From positions 1,612,001-1,676,000 of the forward strand of contig NZ_CP098514.1 of the NCBI RefSeq assembly GCF_023703775.1: a DNA stretch of 64,000 bases, written 5' to 3'. This stretch comes from Haloplanus sp. GDY1 (GTDB taxonomy: Archaea > Halobacteriota > Halobacteria > Halobacteriales > Haloferacaceae). This document shows, piece after piece, positions 20,983 to 27,477 of this stretch. The stretch's first letter is position 1, and every line of letters starts with the position of its first letter. Both the position numbers and the translations under genes were made by a program. The notes beneath the pieces were generated by a model. It made no database searches. It was given only the letters and a program-made list of their open reading frames with translations, and had not been told where the DNA came from.

Positions 20983-21969
20983 CTACACGAGGCGGTCGAC
21001 AGCGAGGTCGATCTCCTCGGCGGTCGGGAGGACCTCGTCCTCGAGGGGCGGGCTGAACGGGATGGGCGTGTCCGGCACGCCGACGCGCTGGATCGGGACG
21101 TCCAGCGAGTAGAACTCGTTTTCGACGACGCGCGTCGCCACCTCGGCGTGGAGGCCGTAGGAGAGCGGGCTCTCGTCGGCGACGACCAGCCTGCCGGTCT
21201 TCCGGACGCTCTCGGCGATGGTGTCGGTGTCGAGCGGGGAGAGCGACTGTGGATCGATCACCTCGACGTCGGCGTCGGTGCGGTCCTCGGCGACGGAGAG
21301 CGCCTCGCCGACGAGTTGCTGGGTGGCGACCACCGTCACGTCGGCCCCCTCGCGGAGGACGGCCGCCTCGCCGATGGGGACGGTGAAGTCCTCGTCCTCG
21401 GGGACCGGCCCCGTGCGCTCGTAGATGTTCTTGTGCTCGAAGAAGACGACCGGATCGTTCGAGCGGACGGCGGTCTTCATCAGCCCCTTCGACCCGCGGG
21501 GGGTCGCGGGGGCGACTGCCTTGATCCCGGGCAGATGCGAGACGAGCGTGTGGACGGTACTCGAGTGCTGGGCCGCGGCGTTGAAGCCGGCTCCCTCGAT
21601 GGCCCGGACGGTGAGGGGCATCTCCGTCGCCCCCGCGAACATGTACTGCATCTTCGCCGCCTGATTCATCAGGGGCTCGAAGCAGATGGCGATGAAATCG
21701 GAGTAACTGACGTTGACCACCGGCCGGAGCCCGGTCGCCGCCGCGCCGACGCCGGAGCCGATCTGTGCGGTTTCGCTGATCGGCGTGTCGCGGACCCTGT
21801 CCCGGCCGAACTCCTCGTAGAGGCCGGCGGTCACCTCGAACGACCCGCCGTCCTCCTCGTCCTGTCCCATCAGGAAGACGGTGTCGTCCCGCGCGAGTTC
21901 CTCGCGCAGCGCCGTCCGGATCGCCTCCCGAACGGACAGTTGCTCGCCGGTCGCGTCGAGCGCGCTCAT
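20983..21969 (-). CDS. 2-oxoacid dehydrogenase complex E1 component, beta subunit
   Basis: 328 residues, transketolase-like pyrimidine-binding and C-terminal domains. Features include VFLMGQDEEDGG, RVRDTPISETA (TPP pyrimidine-interacting Glu region), EPLMNQAAKM, VFFEHKNIYE and EVIDPQSLSPLDTDTI. It pairs with the alpha subunit before it, whose stop overlaps this ATG by 4 bases. Together they decarboxylate a 2-oxo acid (pyruvate, acetoin-type or branched chain) and pass the acyl group to a lipoyl E2. The start MSALDATGEQ is fixed by the overlap. Confidence 0.9.
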   Translation of the reverse strand: MSALDATGEQLSVREAIRTALREELARDDTVFLMGQDEEDGGSFEVTAGLYEEFGRDRVRDTPISETAQIGSGVGAAATGLRPVVNVSYSDFIAICFEPLMNQAAKMQYMFAGATEMPLTVRAIEGAGFNAAAQHSSTVHTLVSHLPGIKAVAPATPRGSKGLMKTAVRSNDPVVFFEHKNIYERTGPVPEDEDFTVPIGEAAVLREGADVTVVATQQLVGEALSVAEDRTDADVEVIDPQSLSPLDTDTIAESVRKTGRLVVADESPLSYGLHAEVATRVVENEFYSLDVPIQRVGVPDTPIPFSPPLEDEVLPTAEEIDLAVDRLV

Positions 21970-23003
21970 CGGTCGGCACCTCCCGTCCGCCCGAGTCGCT
22001 CGCGGAAGTACTCCACGTCCGGGTTCGGCTCGACGAACACGTCGTCGTACGCCTCCTCGGGGTCGGGGAAGGGCGCGTCCCGCGCGTACTCGACCGCCGC
22101 CTCGACGTCCGCCTCGACGGCCGACTGCAGCTCCTCGCGCTCCCCCTCGTCGAGGACGCCCGCCTCCCGGAGGCGCGTCGCGAACGTGTCGATGGCGTCG
22201 CGGTTCTCCCGCCACTCGTCTATCTCCTCCTGGGTCCGGTACGGCTGCGGGTCGCCCTCGTAGTGGCCGCGGTAGCGGTACGTCTTCGCCTCGATGAGCG
22301 TCGGCCCGTCGCCCCGTGCCGCGCGCTCCCGCGCCTCGGCGACGGCGTCGTAGACGGCCTCGACGTCCATCCCGTCGACGACGACGCCCGGGATGCCGTA
22401 GGCGGCGGCGCTGTCGGCCAGGTCCTCGACGTTGTGCTGTTTCTCGTAGGTCATCCCCTCCGAGTAGAGGTTGTTCTCGACGACGTAGATGGCGGGCAGG
22501 TCCCAGGTGGCAGCGAGGTTGATCGACTCGTGGACCTGTCCCTCGGCGAAGGCGCCGTCGCCGAAGAAGGAGAGGCCGACCCAGTCCCGGTCGCGGAGCT
22601 GTGCGGTGAGTCCGGCCCCCGTCGCCAGCGGGACGCCGGCGCCGACGATGGGCTGGGCGCCCAGCATCCCCTCGTCCAGGTCGGCCGCGTGCATCGAGCC
22701 GCCCTTCCCGGAGCAGTAGCCGTCGCTGCGGCCGTACAGCTCCGCCATCAGCGTCCGTTCGTCCATCCCCTTCGCCAGGCAGTGGCCGTGTCCCCGGTGG
22801 GTGCTCGTCACGTAGTCGTCGTCCGCGAGCGCCGAACAGGCGCCGACGGCGACGGCCTCCTGTCCGATGTAGAGGTGTACGAACCCCGGAATCTCTCCGT
22901 CGGCGAAGTTGTCCCGTACCGCACGTTCGAACTCGCGGATGAGCAGCATCCGGCGGAGGGCCTGCCGCTGATCCGACGGGTCGGTCATGTCTAATGTTGC
23001 CAT
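21966..23003 (-). CDS. 2-oxoacid dehydrogenase complex E1 component, alpha subunit
   Basis: 345 residues. The TPP/Mg2+ motif begins with GDGAFAEG and closes at VVENN about 30 residues later. HRGHGHCLAKG and GKGGSMH are the phosphorylation-loop regions typical of PDH/acetoin-dehydrogenase E1 alpha. Start MATLDMTDPSD is chosen with a TATA-like element on the minus strand (CCTTATTC, 23032-23039). It is cotranscribed with E1 beta. The E2 lies on the other strand beyond one intervening gene, and no E3 is present in the window. Confidence 0.9.
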   Translation of the reverse strand: MATLDMTDPSDQRQALRRMLLIREFERAVRDNFADGEIPGFVHLYIGQEAVAVGACSALADDDYVTSTHRGHGHCLAKGMDERTLMAELYGRSDGYCSGKGGSMHAADLDEGMLGAQPIVGAGVPLATGAGLTAQLRDRDWVGLSFFGDGAFAEGQVHESINLAATWDLPAIYVVENNLYSEGMTYEKQHNVEDLADSAAAYGIPGVVVDGMDVEAVYDAVAEARERAARGDGPTLIEAKTYRYRGHYEGDPQPYRTQEEIDEWRENRDAIDTFATRLREAGVLDEGEREELQSAVEADVEAAVEYARDAPFPDPEEAYDDVFVEPNPDVEYFRERLGRTGGADR

Positions 23004-23133
23004 CAGTCGTTCTACGGCGCGCGCCGGAGACGAATAAGGTTTCGGGGGTCGGATCGGGAACGGTGTGGCGACCCCGTCGGGAGGCGGCCACGAACGGGGC
23101 AGAACTTTACCCGCCGGGCGCGTCGGGGGCGAC

Positions 23134-23931
23134 ATGGTGGCGATCCTCGACTCGATCACGAACGTGGACGGCGACCGGCACGCCGGCGACGTCGTCGTCG
23201 CCGGCAGTCACGGCGGCGAGTACGCCGGCTACCTCGCGCTGAAGGCCGGGGTCCGGGGCGTGATCCTCAACGACGCCGGGATCGGAAAGGACGAGGCCGG
23301 CGTCGCGTCGCTGTCCATGCTCGACGAGCGGTCCGTCCCCGCCGCGACGGTCGATCACCGGAGCGCTCGCATCGGCGACGGCGAGGACATGCACGACCGG
23401 GGGCACGTCAGCCGCGTCAACGACGCCGCCGCGGCGCTGGGCTCGGCCCCGGGCCAGTCGACCGCGGAGTGCGCGGCGCGGATGGCCGGCGCCGACCCCG
23501 TCGACGCGGCGGTCCCCGAGTACGGGCCGGGCCGGCACGTGTTCCGGGAGGGCGAGGTCACGGTCCGCGGACTCGACTCCGTGTCGCTGCTCCGCGAGGC
23601 GGACGCCGGCGACGTGATCGTCACCGCGAGTCACGGCTCCCGACTCCCCGGCGAGGACGAACACGGCTCGTACGTCGCCGTCGACGTCGCCGGCATCACC
23701 TTCAACGACGCCGGCCGCGGCGCCGACGACGCGGGCACGACGCGCCTCCCCCACCTCGACGCGCGGGGCATCCCCGCCGTCGCCATCGACTGCGAGACCG
23801 CCCGCATCGGGGACGCGCGGTCGACCTGGGAGACGGGCGTCGTCAGCGTCGCGAACGACGCGGCGACCGCCCTCGGCGTCGGCGCCGGTGACTCCTGTCG
23901 AGCGTTCGTCGCGGCCGTGATCGACCGGTAG
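23134..23931 (+). CDS. Uncharacterised protein with internal tandem duplication (SHGG/NDAG/ARIGD repeats)
   Basis: 265 residues, function not recognised. The two halves (about 18-110 and 159-255) are copies of one domain. Motifs recur in order: GDVVVAGSHGG/GDVIVTASHGS, then GVILNDAG/GITFNDAG, AG followed by LD, SARIGD/TARIGD, and SRVNDAAAALG/SVANDAATALG. The conserved His, Asp and Asn pattern looks like a catalytic or metal site; the first copy keeps an additional glycine after SHG. No signal peptide or membrane segment is visible. It sits between E1 and E2 genes of a 2-oxoacid dehydrogenase, suggesting a metabolic role. A T-rich element (AACTTTACC) lies about 27 bases upstream of the ATG. 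Confidence 0.8.
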   Translation: MVAILDSITNVDGDRHAGDVVVAGSHGGEYAGYLALKAGVRGVILNDAGIGKDEAGVASLSMLDERSVPAATVDHRSARIGDGEDMHDRGHVSRVNDAAAALGSAPGQSTAECAARMAGADPVDAAVPEYGPGRHVFREGEVTVRGLDSVSLLREADAGDVIVTASHGSRLPGEDEHGSYVAVDVAGITFNDAGRGADDAGTTRLPHLDARGIPAVAIDCETARIGDARSTWETGVVSVANDAATALGVGAGDSCRAFVAAVIDR

Positions 23932-24001
23932 CCGACCGCCCTCCCGGCCGCCGCTCGTGAACAGGGGGCACGCTTTTGGTTCCCCCCGCTCCCGTGATAC
24001 C

Positions 24002-25666
24002 ATGGGCTACGCAGTACGAATGCCGAAGATGGGGATGACGATGGAGGAGGGGACCGTGATCGAGTGGCACGTCGACGTCGACGGGACGGTCGAGGCCGAC
24101 GCCCCCCTCGTCGACGTCGAGAGCGAGAAGTCGGTCAACGAGGTGACCGCCCGGGAGGGCGGGACGCTCCTCGAACGGTTCGCCGACGCCGGCGACACGG
24201 TGGCGCCCGGCGACCCCATCGGGTACGTGGGCGACGCCGACGCCGAGGTGCCCGACGACGTCCGGGAGGAGGTCGGCGGGACGGCCGAGGAGAAAGAGGA
24301 GACGGCGGCGACCGACGCACCGACGGCGGCCGCGGGGACGACGGCCGACGGCCCGGTGTCCGTCCGCGAACTGTCCGCGGACGTGTCGCCCCGCGCCCGG
24401 GCGTACGCCGGCGACGCCGGGGTCGACCCCGCCGACCTCGACGCCATCTCGGGGTCCGGCCCGGGCGGGGCCGTGATCGAACGGGACGTGATCGAGGCCG
24501 TCGAAGCCGGCGACGCGGCGGACGGATCGGCCCAGGAGGGGCCGGCGATCCGCGAGGTTCGGGAGCTGACCGGGCTGCGGCGATCCGTCGCCGACCGGAT
24601 GACCACCTCGGCACGCGAGGCGCCACAGGTGACGCTGAACCGCCGCGTGGACGTCGGGGCGACGCTCGCGACGATCGACCGGCTCGCCGCCGACAGGGGC
24701 GTCGAGGTGTCGATCACGGACTTCCTGCTCGCCGCGGTCGCCAGGGCCGCCGAGGAGCATCCGGCGCTGAACGCCCGCTTCGTCGACGGCGAACACCGCA
24801 TCGCCAGCGACGTGAACGTCAGCGTCGCCGTCGACGTCGAGGGCGGCCTCGTCACGCCCGTCGTCGAGCGCGTGGGCGAACTCACCGTCGAGGGGATCGG
24901 TCGCGAGCGAGCGGCGCTCACGGAGGCCGTCCAGGCGGGGACACACGACGCCGCCGACCTGCAGGGCGGGACGTTCACCGTCACCAACCTCGGCATGTTC
25001 GGCGTCGACAGCTTCGACCCGCTCCTGAACCCCCCACAGGTGGCGATCCTCGGCGTCGGCCGCCTCCACACCGACGACGACGGCGCCGAACTCCCCCTCT
25101 CGCTCACCTTCGACCACCGCGTGGCCGACGGCGCGGACGCCGCCCGATTCCTCGCGGCGGTCGCGGACGCGCTCACCCGACCGCTCGAACTGATCGGCGG
25201 CGGCTCCGAGGGTGCCGACACGGGGCCGACGGCCGCCGACGAGTCGCCCCCCGCCCCGCCCGAGGGGACGGTCACCGCACGCTCCGCGGAGGGGTTATCC
25301 GCCACCGTCCGGGCGCGCGAGTTCGAGTGGCGCGCCGACGAACCCGAGGAGCGGGGCGGCACCGACAGCGCCGCGACGCCGGTCGAGCAGTTCCTCGGGA
25401 GCCTCTCGTCGTGTCTGGCCCTGACGACGCGGCTGATGGCCGACCGGCGCGACGTCGCCATCGAGACGATCACCGTCGAGGTGACGGCCGAGCCCTCCGT
25501 CCACGACATCGACGCGCTCGACGTGCAGGTCGAGGCGACCGCCGACGAGGACCCCGCGGACGTCGAGCGGGTCGTCACGGTCGCGGAGCGCGCCTGTCCG
25601 GTCAACGGGATCGTCTCGGAGGACGTCGACCGGTCGATCGGCGTGACCGTCTCCCGACCCTCGTAG
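24002..25666 (+). CDS. Dihydrolipoamide acyltransferase E2 fused to a C-terminal OsmC domain
   Basis: 554 residues. Lipoyl domain is 1-78, with lipoyl-lysine candidate Lys43 (ESEKSV). The peripheral subunit-binding domain is about 128-165. The acyltransferase core is about 185-395, with the catalytic DHRVADG (His372, Asp376). A proline-rich linker follows. Residues 421-554 form an OsmC-type domain with both family cysteines: Cys471 in SLSSCLAL and Cys532 in ACPVNG. OsmC/Ohr proteins reduce organic hydroperoxides and are recycled by lipoyl or dihydrolipoyl groups. The fusion could therefore couple a self-carried lipoyl domain to peroxidase activity. It serves the E1 pair at 20983-23003. E3 must come from elsewhere. 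Start 24002 is used because MGYAVRMPKMG is the canonical lipoyl N-terminus. Confidence 0.88.
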   Translation: MGYAVRMPKMGMTMEEGTVIEWHVDVDGTVEADAPLVDVESEKSVNEVTAREGGTLLERFADAGDTVAPGDPIGYVGDADAEVPDDVREEVGGTAEEKEETAATDAPTAAAGTTADGPVSVRELSADVSPRARAYAGDAGVDPADLDAISGSGPGGAVIERDVIEAVEAGDAADGSAQEGPAIREVRELTGLRRSVADRMTTSAREAPQVTLNRRVDVGATLATIDRLAADRGVEVSITDFLLAAVARAAEEHPALNARFVDGEHRIASDVNVSVAVDVEGGLVTPVVERVGELTVEGIGRERAALTEAVQAGTHDAADLQGGTFTVTNLGMFGVDSFDPLLNPPQVAILGVGRLHTDDDGAELPLSLTFDHRVADGADAARFLAAVADALTRPLELIGGGSEGADTGPTAADESPPAPPEGTVTARSAEGLSATVRAREFEWRADEPEERGGTDSAATPVEQFLGSLSSCLALTTRLMADRRDVAIETITVEVTAEPSVHDIDALDVQVEATADEDPADVERVVTVAERACPVNGIVSEDVDRSIGVTVSRPS

Positions 25667-25714
25667 CCATCGGGACGGGGAGGAGTTTTACCCGCCCCCG
25701 CCGTGGGTCGGGCC

Positions 25715-26620
25715 ATGCTATCGGATAGCGTACTGGTCGTCACCGGGGCGGGGCGGGGCATCGGTCGAGCGGTCGCAATCGAACTGGCCGGGGCGGGCGC
25801 GACGGTCGTGGTCAACGACCTCGGCGCGTCCGTCGAGGGGGAGGGAGCAAACGAGGACCCGGCGAGGGAGACGGTCGCGACCATCGAGGCGGCGGGCGGG
25901 ACGGCCACGGCACACGTGGGCGACGTGACCGACCCCTCGTACACGGCGTCGCTTCTCGCGGACGCCGCGGAGGCCCACGGCCGGGTCGACGGCGTCGCCA
26001 ACTTCGCGGGCGCCGCCGACCCGGCGCCGATCCACGAGATGTCCCTCGACCAGTGGGAGCGAGTGGTCGACGTCCACCTCCGGGGGCACTTCTGCCTGCT
26101 CAGGAGCGCCGCGCGGCAGTGGATCGACGCCGACGGGGACCGGGACCGCTCGTTTCTCTGTGTCTCCAGTCAGTCCGCCCTCGGTCACTACGCCATGGCG
26201 AACTACACGGCGGCGAAGGCGGGCATCCTCGGGCTGATGCGGACCGCCGCGAACGAACTGGCAGAACACGGCGTCCGGGTGAACGCGCTGTTTCCGAGCG
26301 GAACGACGCGGCTGTCCGACGCCCTCACCGACGACGCGTACCGGGATCCCGTCCCGCCGGAGCAGGTGGCGCCGATGGTCGCGTACCTGCTCGGCGACGC
26401 CGCGGCCGACGTCACCGGCTGTACGTTCAGGGCGGGCGGCGAGGAGATCGGCTTCGTCACCGATCCCGAGATGTCCCGCCTCGCCTACCGCGAGGACGGG
26501 TGGACGGCGGAGGCGGTCGCCGAGCAGTTCCCCGACGTCACCGCCGGGATCGACCTCGACCGGTCCGAGACGCTCGTGAGCGAGCGGTACGGCCTCGACG
26601 CCGAGGGGATGGGCGGGTAG
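25715..26620 (+). CDS. Short-chain dehydrogenase/reductase (SDR)
   Basis: 301 residues. Cofactor loop TGAGRGIGRA is at the N-terminus, an NNAG-equivalent NFAGAAD near residue 95, Ser in VSSQSA, and Tyr-x3-Lys in NYTAAKAG. The C-terminal extension beyond 250 (YREDGWTAEAVAEQF) matches the class related to the multifunctional peroxisomal 3-hydroxyacyl-CoA dehydrogenases. It therefore probably acts on a hydroxyacyl-CoA or keto-ester. GTTTTACC at 25685-25692 is a TATA-like element about 27 bases upstream, supporting ATG 25715. Confidence 0.87.
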   Translation: MLSDSVLVVTGAGRGIGRAVAIELAGAGATVVVNDLGASVEGEGANEDPARETVATIEAAGGTATAHVGDVTDPSYTASLLADAAEAHGRVDGVANFAGAADPAPIHEMSLDQWERVVDVHLRGHFCLLRSAARQWIDADGDRDRSFLCVSSQSALGHYAMANYTAAKAGILGLMRTAANELAEHGVRVNALFPSGTTRLSDALTDDAYRDPVPPEQVAPMVAYLLGDAAADVTGCTFRAGGEEIGFVTDPEMSRLAYREDGWTAEAVAEQFPDVTAGIDLDRSETLVSERYGLDAEGMGG

Positions 26621-26691: not shown

Positions 26692-27477
26692 ATGGCGAAC
26701 GCCACGTTCGACTACGACGGCGAGACCGTGATCGTGACCGGCGGGAGTTCGGGCATCGGCCGTGCCATCGCACTCGCGTTCGGGGACGCGGGCGCGACGG
26801 TCGTCAACGCGGACCTGCAACCCGACCACCACGGCGACGGGGACGTGACCCCGACCCACGAGGCCATCGAGGCCGAGGGCGGCCGCGCCCTGTTCGTCGA
26901 GACCGACGTCGCCGACCGGTCGGCCATCGAGTCGGTCGTCGACGCGGCCCGCGAGTTCGGCGGCGTCGACGTGATGGTCAACAACGCCGGGACGCACGTC
27001 CCCGGGTCGGTGCTGGACGTCGGTCAGGACGAGTACGACCTGATGGAGTCGGTCAACGTCGGCGGCGTGTTGTTCGGCTGCCAGGCGGCCGCGGCCGACA
27101 TGCTCGACCGGGGCGAGGAGGGGTCGATCGTCAACACCGCCTCCATCCGCACCGACACGGCCCTGGGGGACCAGATCCTCTACAACCTGACGAAGGGTGC
27201 GGTGAAGATGATCACCCGGACCGCCGCGCTCGAACTGGCCGACCGAGGAATCCGCGTCAACGGCATCTCCCCCGGACGGACGGTGACGGCGCTCGCCGAG
27301 GGGACGGAGAAGGCCGAGGAGTGGTCCGAGAGCGACGACCTCGTGAAACCGATCCCGATGGGTCGTCCGGCGGCGCCCGACGAGATAGCGCCGGGGGCGC
27401 TGTTTCTGGCCAGCGACGCCGCCGGCTACGTCACCGGCGAACTCCTGACCATCGACGGCGCCTGGTCGATCTACTGA
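26692..27477 (+). CDS. Short-chain dehydrogenase/reductase (SDR), glucose-dehydrogenase/ketoreductase type
   Basis: 261 residues, classical SDR. Motifs are TGGSSGIGRA (cofactor), VNNAGTH, a serine in NTASIRT, and YNLTKGAVK (catalytic Tyr and Lys). The C-terminus GYVTGELLTIDGAWSIY matches the family's usual ending. It oxidises or reduces a secondary alcohol with NAD(P). It is separated from the preceding SDR by a tandem repeat and its own TATA-like element, and converges on the MDR dehydrogenase. Confidence 0.88.
   Translation: MANATFDYDGETVIVTGGSSGIGRAIALAFGDAGATVVNADLQPDHHGDGDVTPTHEAIEAEGGRALFVETDVADRSAIESVVDAAREFGGVDVMVNNAGTHVPGSVLDVGQDEYDLMESVNVGGVLFGCQAAAADMLDRGEEGSIVNTASIRTDTALGDQILYNLTKGAVKMITRTAALELADRGIRVNGISPGRTVTALAEGTEKAEEWSESDDLVKPIPMGRPAAPDEIAPGALFLASDAAGYVTGELLTIDGAWSIY

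Follow-up and report, generated by a model that had tools for sequence, protein, structure and literature searches.

A haloarchaeal 2-oxoacid dehydrogenase-type E2 with a C-terminal OsmC-fold domain resembling YhfA in its active-site residues

In M. tuberculosis the lipoyl arm of an E2 feeds a peroxidase through the separate proteins DlaT, AhpD and AhpC. Reduction by lipoylated proteins is described for both Ohr and OsmC in the accessible sections of PMC8945050, in agreement with the original prediction made for the locus studied here. The catalytic glutamate of Ohr lies ten residues before the peroxidatic cysteine (Cp) and is required for activity, and the active sites of OsmC and Ohr form at a dimer interface, according to passages of PMC5962072. 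A further branch of the family, YhfA, is described as keeping both cysteines without the arginine and the glutamate and as uninvestigated in function (PMC8945050, in part); its activity is given as not known in the available text of PMC8945050 and PMC5962072. Selenocysteine occurs in one OsmC-like protein of the YhfA class (COG1765), as an excerpt of PMC9312934 reports. As for the host complexes, most haloarchaeal 2-oxoacid dehydrogenase paralogues and complexes have no identified substrate according to the accessible part of PMC8305020, and the accessible part of a paper on archaeal lipoylation does not mention OsmC (PMC3904984). A full-text literature search, with subscription papers mostly outside its coverage, found no description of an E2-OsmC fusion.

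In this work a gene joining these two kinds of protein was analyzed in a stretch of 64,000 nucleotides (the window) from the 3.44 Mb, four-contig genome of Haloplanus sp. GDY1. We propose, with confidence that is about evenly balanced, that it encodes a haloarchaeal 2-oxoacid/acetoin-type E2 with a C-terminal OsmC-fold thiol-redox module that has YhfA-like residues and uses the lipoyl arm as reductant.

The E2-OsmC gene and its neighbourhood

The fusion gene lies at 24002..25666 on the + strand and translates as an intact frame of 554 residues with a single terminal stop. The frame is open slightly further 5', with a GTG at 23957; the ATG at 24002 is favoured because it matches the MGY start of relatives in the alignment. 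The original prediction had assigned lipoyl, subunit-binding, acyltransferase and OsmC domains to this frame and had named five functional residues, and translation and Pfam bore out the whole assignment. The lipoyl domain (PF00364, Biotin_lipoyl; 24014..24223, residues 5-74) contains Lys43 (24128-24130) in an ESEKS lipoylation motif, and is followed by the E3-binding, or peripheral subunit-binding, domain (PF02817; 24386..24490, residues 129-163). The E2 acyltransferase catalytic domain (PF00198, 2-oxoacid_dh; 24554..25192, residues 185-397) has His372 (25115-25117) and Asp376 (25127-25129) within DHRVADG. In the OsmC domain (PF02566; 25358..25621, residues 453-540), Cys471 (25412-25414) stands in SSCLA and Cys532 (25595-25597) in RACPV, together with Glu462 (25385-25387) and Arg530 (25589-25591); all of these features are on the + strand. 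All four domains score above cut-off, the OsmC match reaching 54 bits against a gathering cut-off of 27.5. With a lipoylatable lysine, an E3-binding domain and a catalytic domain with its histidine and aspartate, the protein is a predicted 2-oxoacid dehydrogenase E2.

A congener (G111; locus L008/L076) encodes this protein too, 79% identical over residues 1-554 and with the same genes around it. Comparison of the window with this orthologue gave dN/dS values of approximately 0.37 for OsmC, 0.23 for the E2 core and 0.5 for the linker, by which the gene is judged to be under purifying selection. In the post-lipoyl linker most relatives have two E3-binding-domain-like copies (ASPRA..RAxELGVDL..), the exceptions in the alignment being the window, which has one, L008-L010, L037, L039 and L049. 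A search for direct repeats within the gene returned nothing notable.

The order of genes in the window, shared with L076, is E1beta and E1alpha (divergent), a conserved gene, the fusion and two short-chain dehydrogenase genes. E1beta (20983..21981, - strand) matches NCBIfam NF006667/PRK09212 at 295.5 bits, under the cut-off of 321, and E1alpha (21966..23159, - strand, as the longest frame; homology spans 21969-22979) matches TIGR03182 at 363.8 bits, just under the cut-off of 393.85; both are syntenic in L076. The conserved gene between E1alpha and the fusion (23065..23931, + strand, 288 residues) is 79% identical in L076 and has no Pfam, NCBIfam or PDB match; in L022 and L046, copies with 56-58% identity adjoin E2 genes that are not fused. 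By eye, this frame appears to contain an internal duplication (ASHG...NDAG). Downstream, the first short-chain dehydrogenase gene (25703..26620, + strand) matches NCBIfam SDR models under cut-off and the second (26692..27477, + strand) matches NF005559 above cut-off, both again syntenic in L076. In the genome, Lpd (E3) and LipA were found above cut-off.

Of 31 loci (23 named loci, seven further ones, L076-L082, six of which have E1, and the window), 26 have the E1alpha and E1beta genes next to the fusion; those without E1 neighbours are two remnants described below (L067 and L072), L071, where the contig ends, L073 and L081. A convergent set of E1alpha, E1beta and an NAD-kinase-like gene (Pfam NAD_kinase), in that order, lies opposite the fusion gene at 19 of the 23 named loci, an example being the NAD-kinase-like gene that adjoins E1beta at L053:6795-7850 (-). 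We take this neighbour to be AcoX-like, and the set presumably resembles the acoABX operons of acetoin catabolism. A search of the window's own genome for the NAD-kinase-like gene, run without a positive control, gave no match. A glutathione S-transferase-like gene (Pfam) adjoins the E1 genes of Halegenticoccus tardaugens (L059:10168-11268, +), and three more loci have frames like it.

Active-site residues and relationships of the OsmC domain

The isolated OsmC domain was modelled with a mean pLDDT of 86, and its best PDB matches were 1lql (Z 14.7), 1ml8 (YhfA; 14.5) and 2egt (AQ1549; 14.5), with which the Ohr entries 6mjn (14.4) and 6d9n (14.3) are tied within 1. On the profile score and the modelled fold together, the domain is a predicted member of the OsmC superfamily. 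The original prediction went further and labelled it a peroxidase of the OsmC type, a label which the active-site residues do not sustain. Among the seven references, five (EcOsmC, TtOsmC, VcOhr, the Ohr of 6mjn and Ta0195) have glutamate at Cp-10; in the 43 fused domains that we collected this residue is V in 40, P in two and I in one, and never Glu. Nor is there a conserved arginine column before Cp: arginine at Cp-20, the spacing of E. coli OsmC, occurs in eight of the 43, the window included (Arg451), and the corresponding column of alignment A4 has arginine in four. The window protein scores 22.8 bits against the NCBIfam Ohr model TIGR03561, under its cut-off of 88.85. Thus, of the features of Ohr/OsmC peroxidases, the fused set has the two cysteines, and lacks the Cp-10 glutamate, a conserved arginine and a score above the Ohr cut-off.

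These observations bear on the strongest of the competing explanations, namely that the tail is an Ohr/OsmC-type lipoyl-dependent reductase of ordinary alkyl hydroperoxides supplied with electrons by the E2 lipoyl arm. We regard this as rather unlikely. The fold, the two cysteines, the known use of lipoylated reductants by Ohr and OsmC (PMC8945050, in part) and the window's Arg451, with its 20-residue spacing to the cysteine, all speak for it; against it stand the absence of the glutamate, the poorly kept arginine, and the XfOhr variants R19A and E51A, which have only residual dihydrolipoamide-dependent activity according to passages of PMC5962072. In addition, the genome carries a separate true OsmC (L003), which is sister to E. 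coli OsmC in the tree.

The pattern found instead is that of YhfA. E. coli YhfA has methionine at Cp-10, and an acidic residue occupies Cp-9 in all 43 fused domains (D in 39, E in four), as it does in YhfA. The two cysteines are kept and the arginine and glutamate are lacking, although at Cp-20 the copy in the window does carry an arginine (Arg451). Together with the published description of YhfA, this pattern at Cp-10, Cp-9 and the arginine indicates an OsmC-fold domain that is YhfA-like in these residues. Two positions before the resolving cysteine, arginine is present in 41 of the 43 fused domains versus two of 33 standalone haloarchaeal OsmC proteins, with lysine in YhfA and Ta0195; Arg530 of the window may be a spatial substitute for the catalytic arginine. 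The best NCBIfam match of the fused domain is an OsmC-related (seleno)protein model, under its cut-off, and this match, with the selenocysteine case from the portion of PMC9312934 cited above, suggests redox catalysis in the YhfA class. In the OsmC tree the branch of E. coli YhfA is very long (2.66) and pairs with a second long one. None of the 33 standalone haloarchaeal OsmC proteins in the comparison belongs to the fused clade, so that among these sequences the fused type of OsmC is confined to proteins in which it is, or once was, joined to an E2.

Distribution, gain and loss in haloarchaea

Searches of 148 genomes of the window's family and 195 of its order identified 26 proteins whose E2 core and OsmC domain share a frame; a lipoyl domain is present in 25. 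Fused genomes number at least 16 of the 148 in the family (one of these being L056/L083) and, at E 1e-60, at least 13 of the 195 in the order, 11 of them new. One OsmC pattern of 10 residues, run against 84,980 genomes, gave 48 matches, which resolved to 23 loci, all in haloarchaea or haloarchaeal MAGs; besides MAGs, the genera were Halogranum, Halegenticoccus, Natribaculum, Natronococcus, Natronorubrum, Halobellus, Natrinema, Halobiforma, Natronolimnohabitans, Natrarchaeobius and Halorubrum. After six duplicates with the same sequence had been dropped, the two sets (26 + 23 - 6) comprise 43 distinct OsmC-tailed proteins, all haloarchaeal, 40 of which have the lipoyl lysine and the E2 core. 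The original prediction had proposed to look for the domain order in other genomes; E2 core followed by OsmC recurs in 40 further proteins. When 294 genomes of the phylum were searched with the OsmC alignment at E 1e-22, the four matches were all fused and all from the window's order. In 72,556 plasmids, tblastn gave no site at which 80% of the E2-OsmC protein was covered, and at E 1e-3 there was no OsmC gene within 1.5 kb of the unfused E2 genes. Two genomes (G097 and G112) were considered as candidates for a split E2/OsmC pair, as their matches extended past a stop as far as query residue 540, yet tblastn with four fused OsmC domains found OsmC absent and both were counted as unfused.

Across the 43 proteins Pfam recognized OsmC in 43, the lipoyl domain in 42, the E2 core in 41 and the E3-binding domain in 40. 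Lys43 is kept in 40 of 43 by alignment, and His372 and Asp376 in all 41 rows that cover their region. Poor conservation of the cysteines, which the original prediction had named as a way in which it might fail, was not encountered: Cys471 and Cys532 are identical in all 43 and, with P460, L472 and V492, make up the only invariant columns.

The 43 OsmC tails lie on one side of a branch with support of 92/91, which 90% of the 200 bootstrap trees recover. For the fused E2 cores, of which there are 41, the tree shows no single clade and requires at least three changes; the AU test likewise rejected one clade (p 0.0003), on a tree that includes long branches. (Unfused L014, L022, L024-L036, L046, L048 and L050-L052 were used in the E2 tree only; alignment A1 omits L039, and alignment A2 omits L063, L067 and L072.) Since the tails form one clade and the cores reject one, the tail has been gained, lost or exchanged more than once. 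Unfused E2 genes stand beside the NAD-kinase-like gene in L014, L032, L033, L050 and L134-L137, beside the gene of the window's 23065 type in L022 and L046, and with E1alpha and a short-chain dehydrogenase in L051. Orthologous complexes in the same gene order but without the tail indicate that the complex does not need it.

Two proteins appear to be remnants of the fusion. In Natrinema gelatinilyticum (L067:5545-6366) and Halobiforma nitratireducens (L072:5611-6360) a lipoyl-like domain without the lysine is joined directly to an intact OsmC domain; the E2 core, the lipoyl lysine and the E1 neighbours are lost and both OsmC cysteines are kept. The dN/dS of OsmC between remnants and relatives is approximately 0.17-0.27 (0.13-0.27 for intact pairs) and that of the lipoyl stretch 0.29-0.43, versus 0.16-0.26 for intact pairs; such pairwise values mix both branches and so indicate constraint rather than prove present function. 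In a further case (L049 / L081, genome G204) E2 core and OsmC occur with no recognisable lipoyl domain and no E1 genes nearby. Because the remnants keep the OsmC cysteines after loss of the lipoyl lysine, there may be reductants other than the lipoyl arm. The original proposal that this arm serves the OsmC cysteines is therefore upheld in part: a lipoyl lysine and a two-cysteine OsmC domain do share one conserved chain, with genes for E1, E3 and LipA present, and the two remnants hold the cysteines without the lysine.

The same proteins are an argument for a different explanation, in which the OsmC domain works on its own as a thiol-redox enzyme, takes its electrons from other lipoyl proteins or from another cellular thiol, and is fused for co-expression or proximity only. 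A constrained OsmC lacking lipoyl lysine, E2 core and E1 neighbours fits this explanation, as does L049 without a lipoyl domain; the lipoyl lysine in 40 of 43 proteins and the position of all 33 standalone proteins outside the fused clade do not, and we give it a little less than a one-in-five chance in our own judgement. A regulatory or assembly role, in which the dimeric OsmC fold cross-links E2 trimers or blocks the complex upon cysteine oxidation, is improbable: it would suit an active site formed at a dimer interface (PMC5962072, in part) and a tail that is optional in otherwise syntenic complexes, but has no known regulatory partner, and a purely structural role leaves the invariance of two cysteines in 43 of 43 unexplained. 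Finally, the joining of two genes by a sequencing error, which the original prediction had itself raised, or by chance read-through found no support and can be set aside with near certainty, as the window frame is intact, the congener carries the same protein in the same neighbourhood, and 43 distinct proteins have the OsmC tail, with E2 core and OsmC sharing a frame in 40 besides the window.

Possible function and comparison with known systems

We return to the reading that we favour, a thiol-redox module served by the lipoyl arm of its own chain. The reductant of the OsmC tail is probably the lipoyl arm of the same complex. Cys471 would attack an oxidised substrate, Cys532 would resolve it to give a Cys471-Cys532 disulfide, and the dihydrolipoyl group on Lys43 would reduce this disulfide, having been charged either by E1 from a 2-oxoacid or by E3 running in reverse from NADH. 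Such a module would serve to protect the complex, or else to signal the redox state of the complex. An ordinary alkyl hydroperoxide, as used by Ohr, is probably not what it acts on; from general chemistry, candidates might be a small disulfide or peroxy-acids. The latter arise when oxygen meets the thiamine intermediate of E1. In the full-length model (mean pLDDT 76, pTM 0.44), for which the best PDB matches are E2 folds, inter-domain confidence is low and the contacts between domains are not fixed.

The fusion of a lipoyl arm with a YhfA-like domain points to a likely reductant of the YhfA branch and to a possible extra role of haloarchaeal complexes, so that the activity of YhfA and the substrates of these complexes become two questions that meet in one protein. 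As a bolder and tentative extension, YhfA-type OsmC proteins might be lipoyl-dependent reductases in general, with the fusion as the natural proof of this, an E2 complex able to operate NADH - E3 - lipoyl - OsmC as a chain of redox defence, and some haloarchaeal complexes without a known substrate might in part be suppliers of reductant.

Compared with the E2 of 2-oxoacid or acetoin dehydrogenases, the fusion has the same order of lipoyl, E3-binding and catalytic domains, the same ESEK and DHRxxDG motifs and the same E1alpha/E1beta neighbours, and differs in approximately 150 extra C-terminal residues that hold the OsmC domain. With the Ohr/OsmC peroxidases (XfOhr, E. coli OsmC) it shares the fold, two cysteines at similar spacing and, in our reading, the reduction by lipoylated proteins that is known for Ohr and OsmC, whereas it is without the Cp-10 glutamate (0/43) and a conserved arginine and is joined covalently to its presumed reductant. 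YhfA (COG1765; E. coli YhfA, PDB 1ml8) is similar in its two cysteines, its acid at Cp-9 instead of Cp-10 and a basic residue two before the resolving cysteine (Lys in YhfA, Arg in 41/43 fused domains), and different in being very distant in sequence, with 18% identity over the structural alignment, and in its place in the tree, where its very long branch falls apart from the fused domains. OsmC is likewise a module of a larger protein in the hydrolase-OsmC protein of PDB 9wo1, the remainder of which we take to be an alpha/beta-hydrolase, and in the OsmC-YcaO fusions (TIGR03549), but in neither is the partner a lipoyl-bearing E2. The DlaT-AhpD-AhpC system, finally, has a different peroxidase fold, and the fusion carries both parts in one chain.
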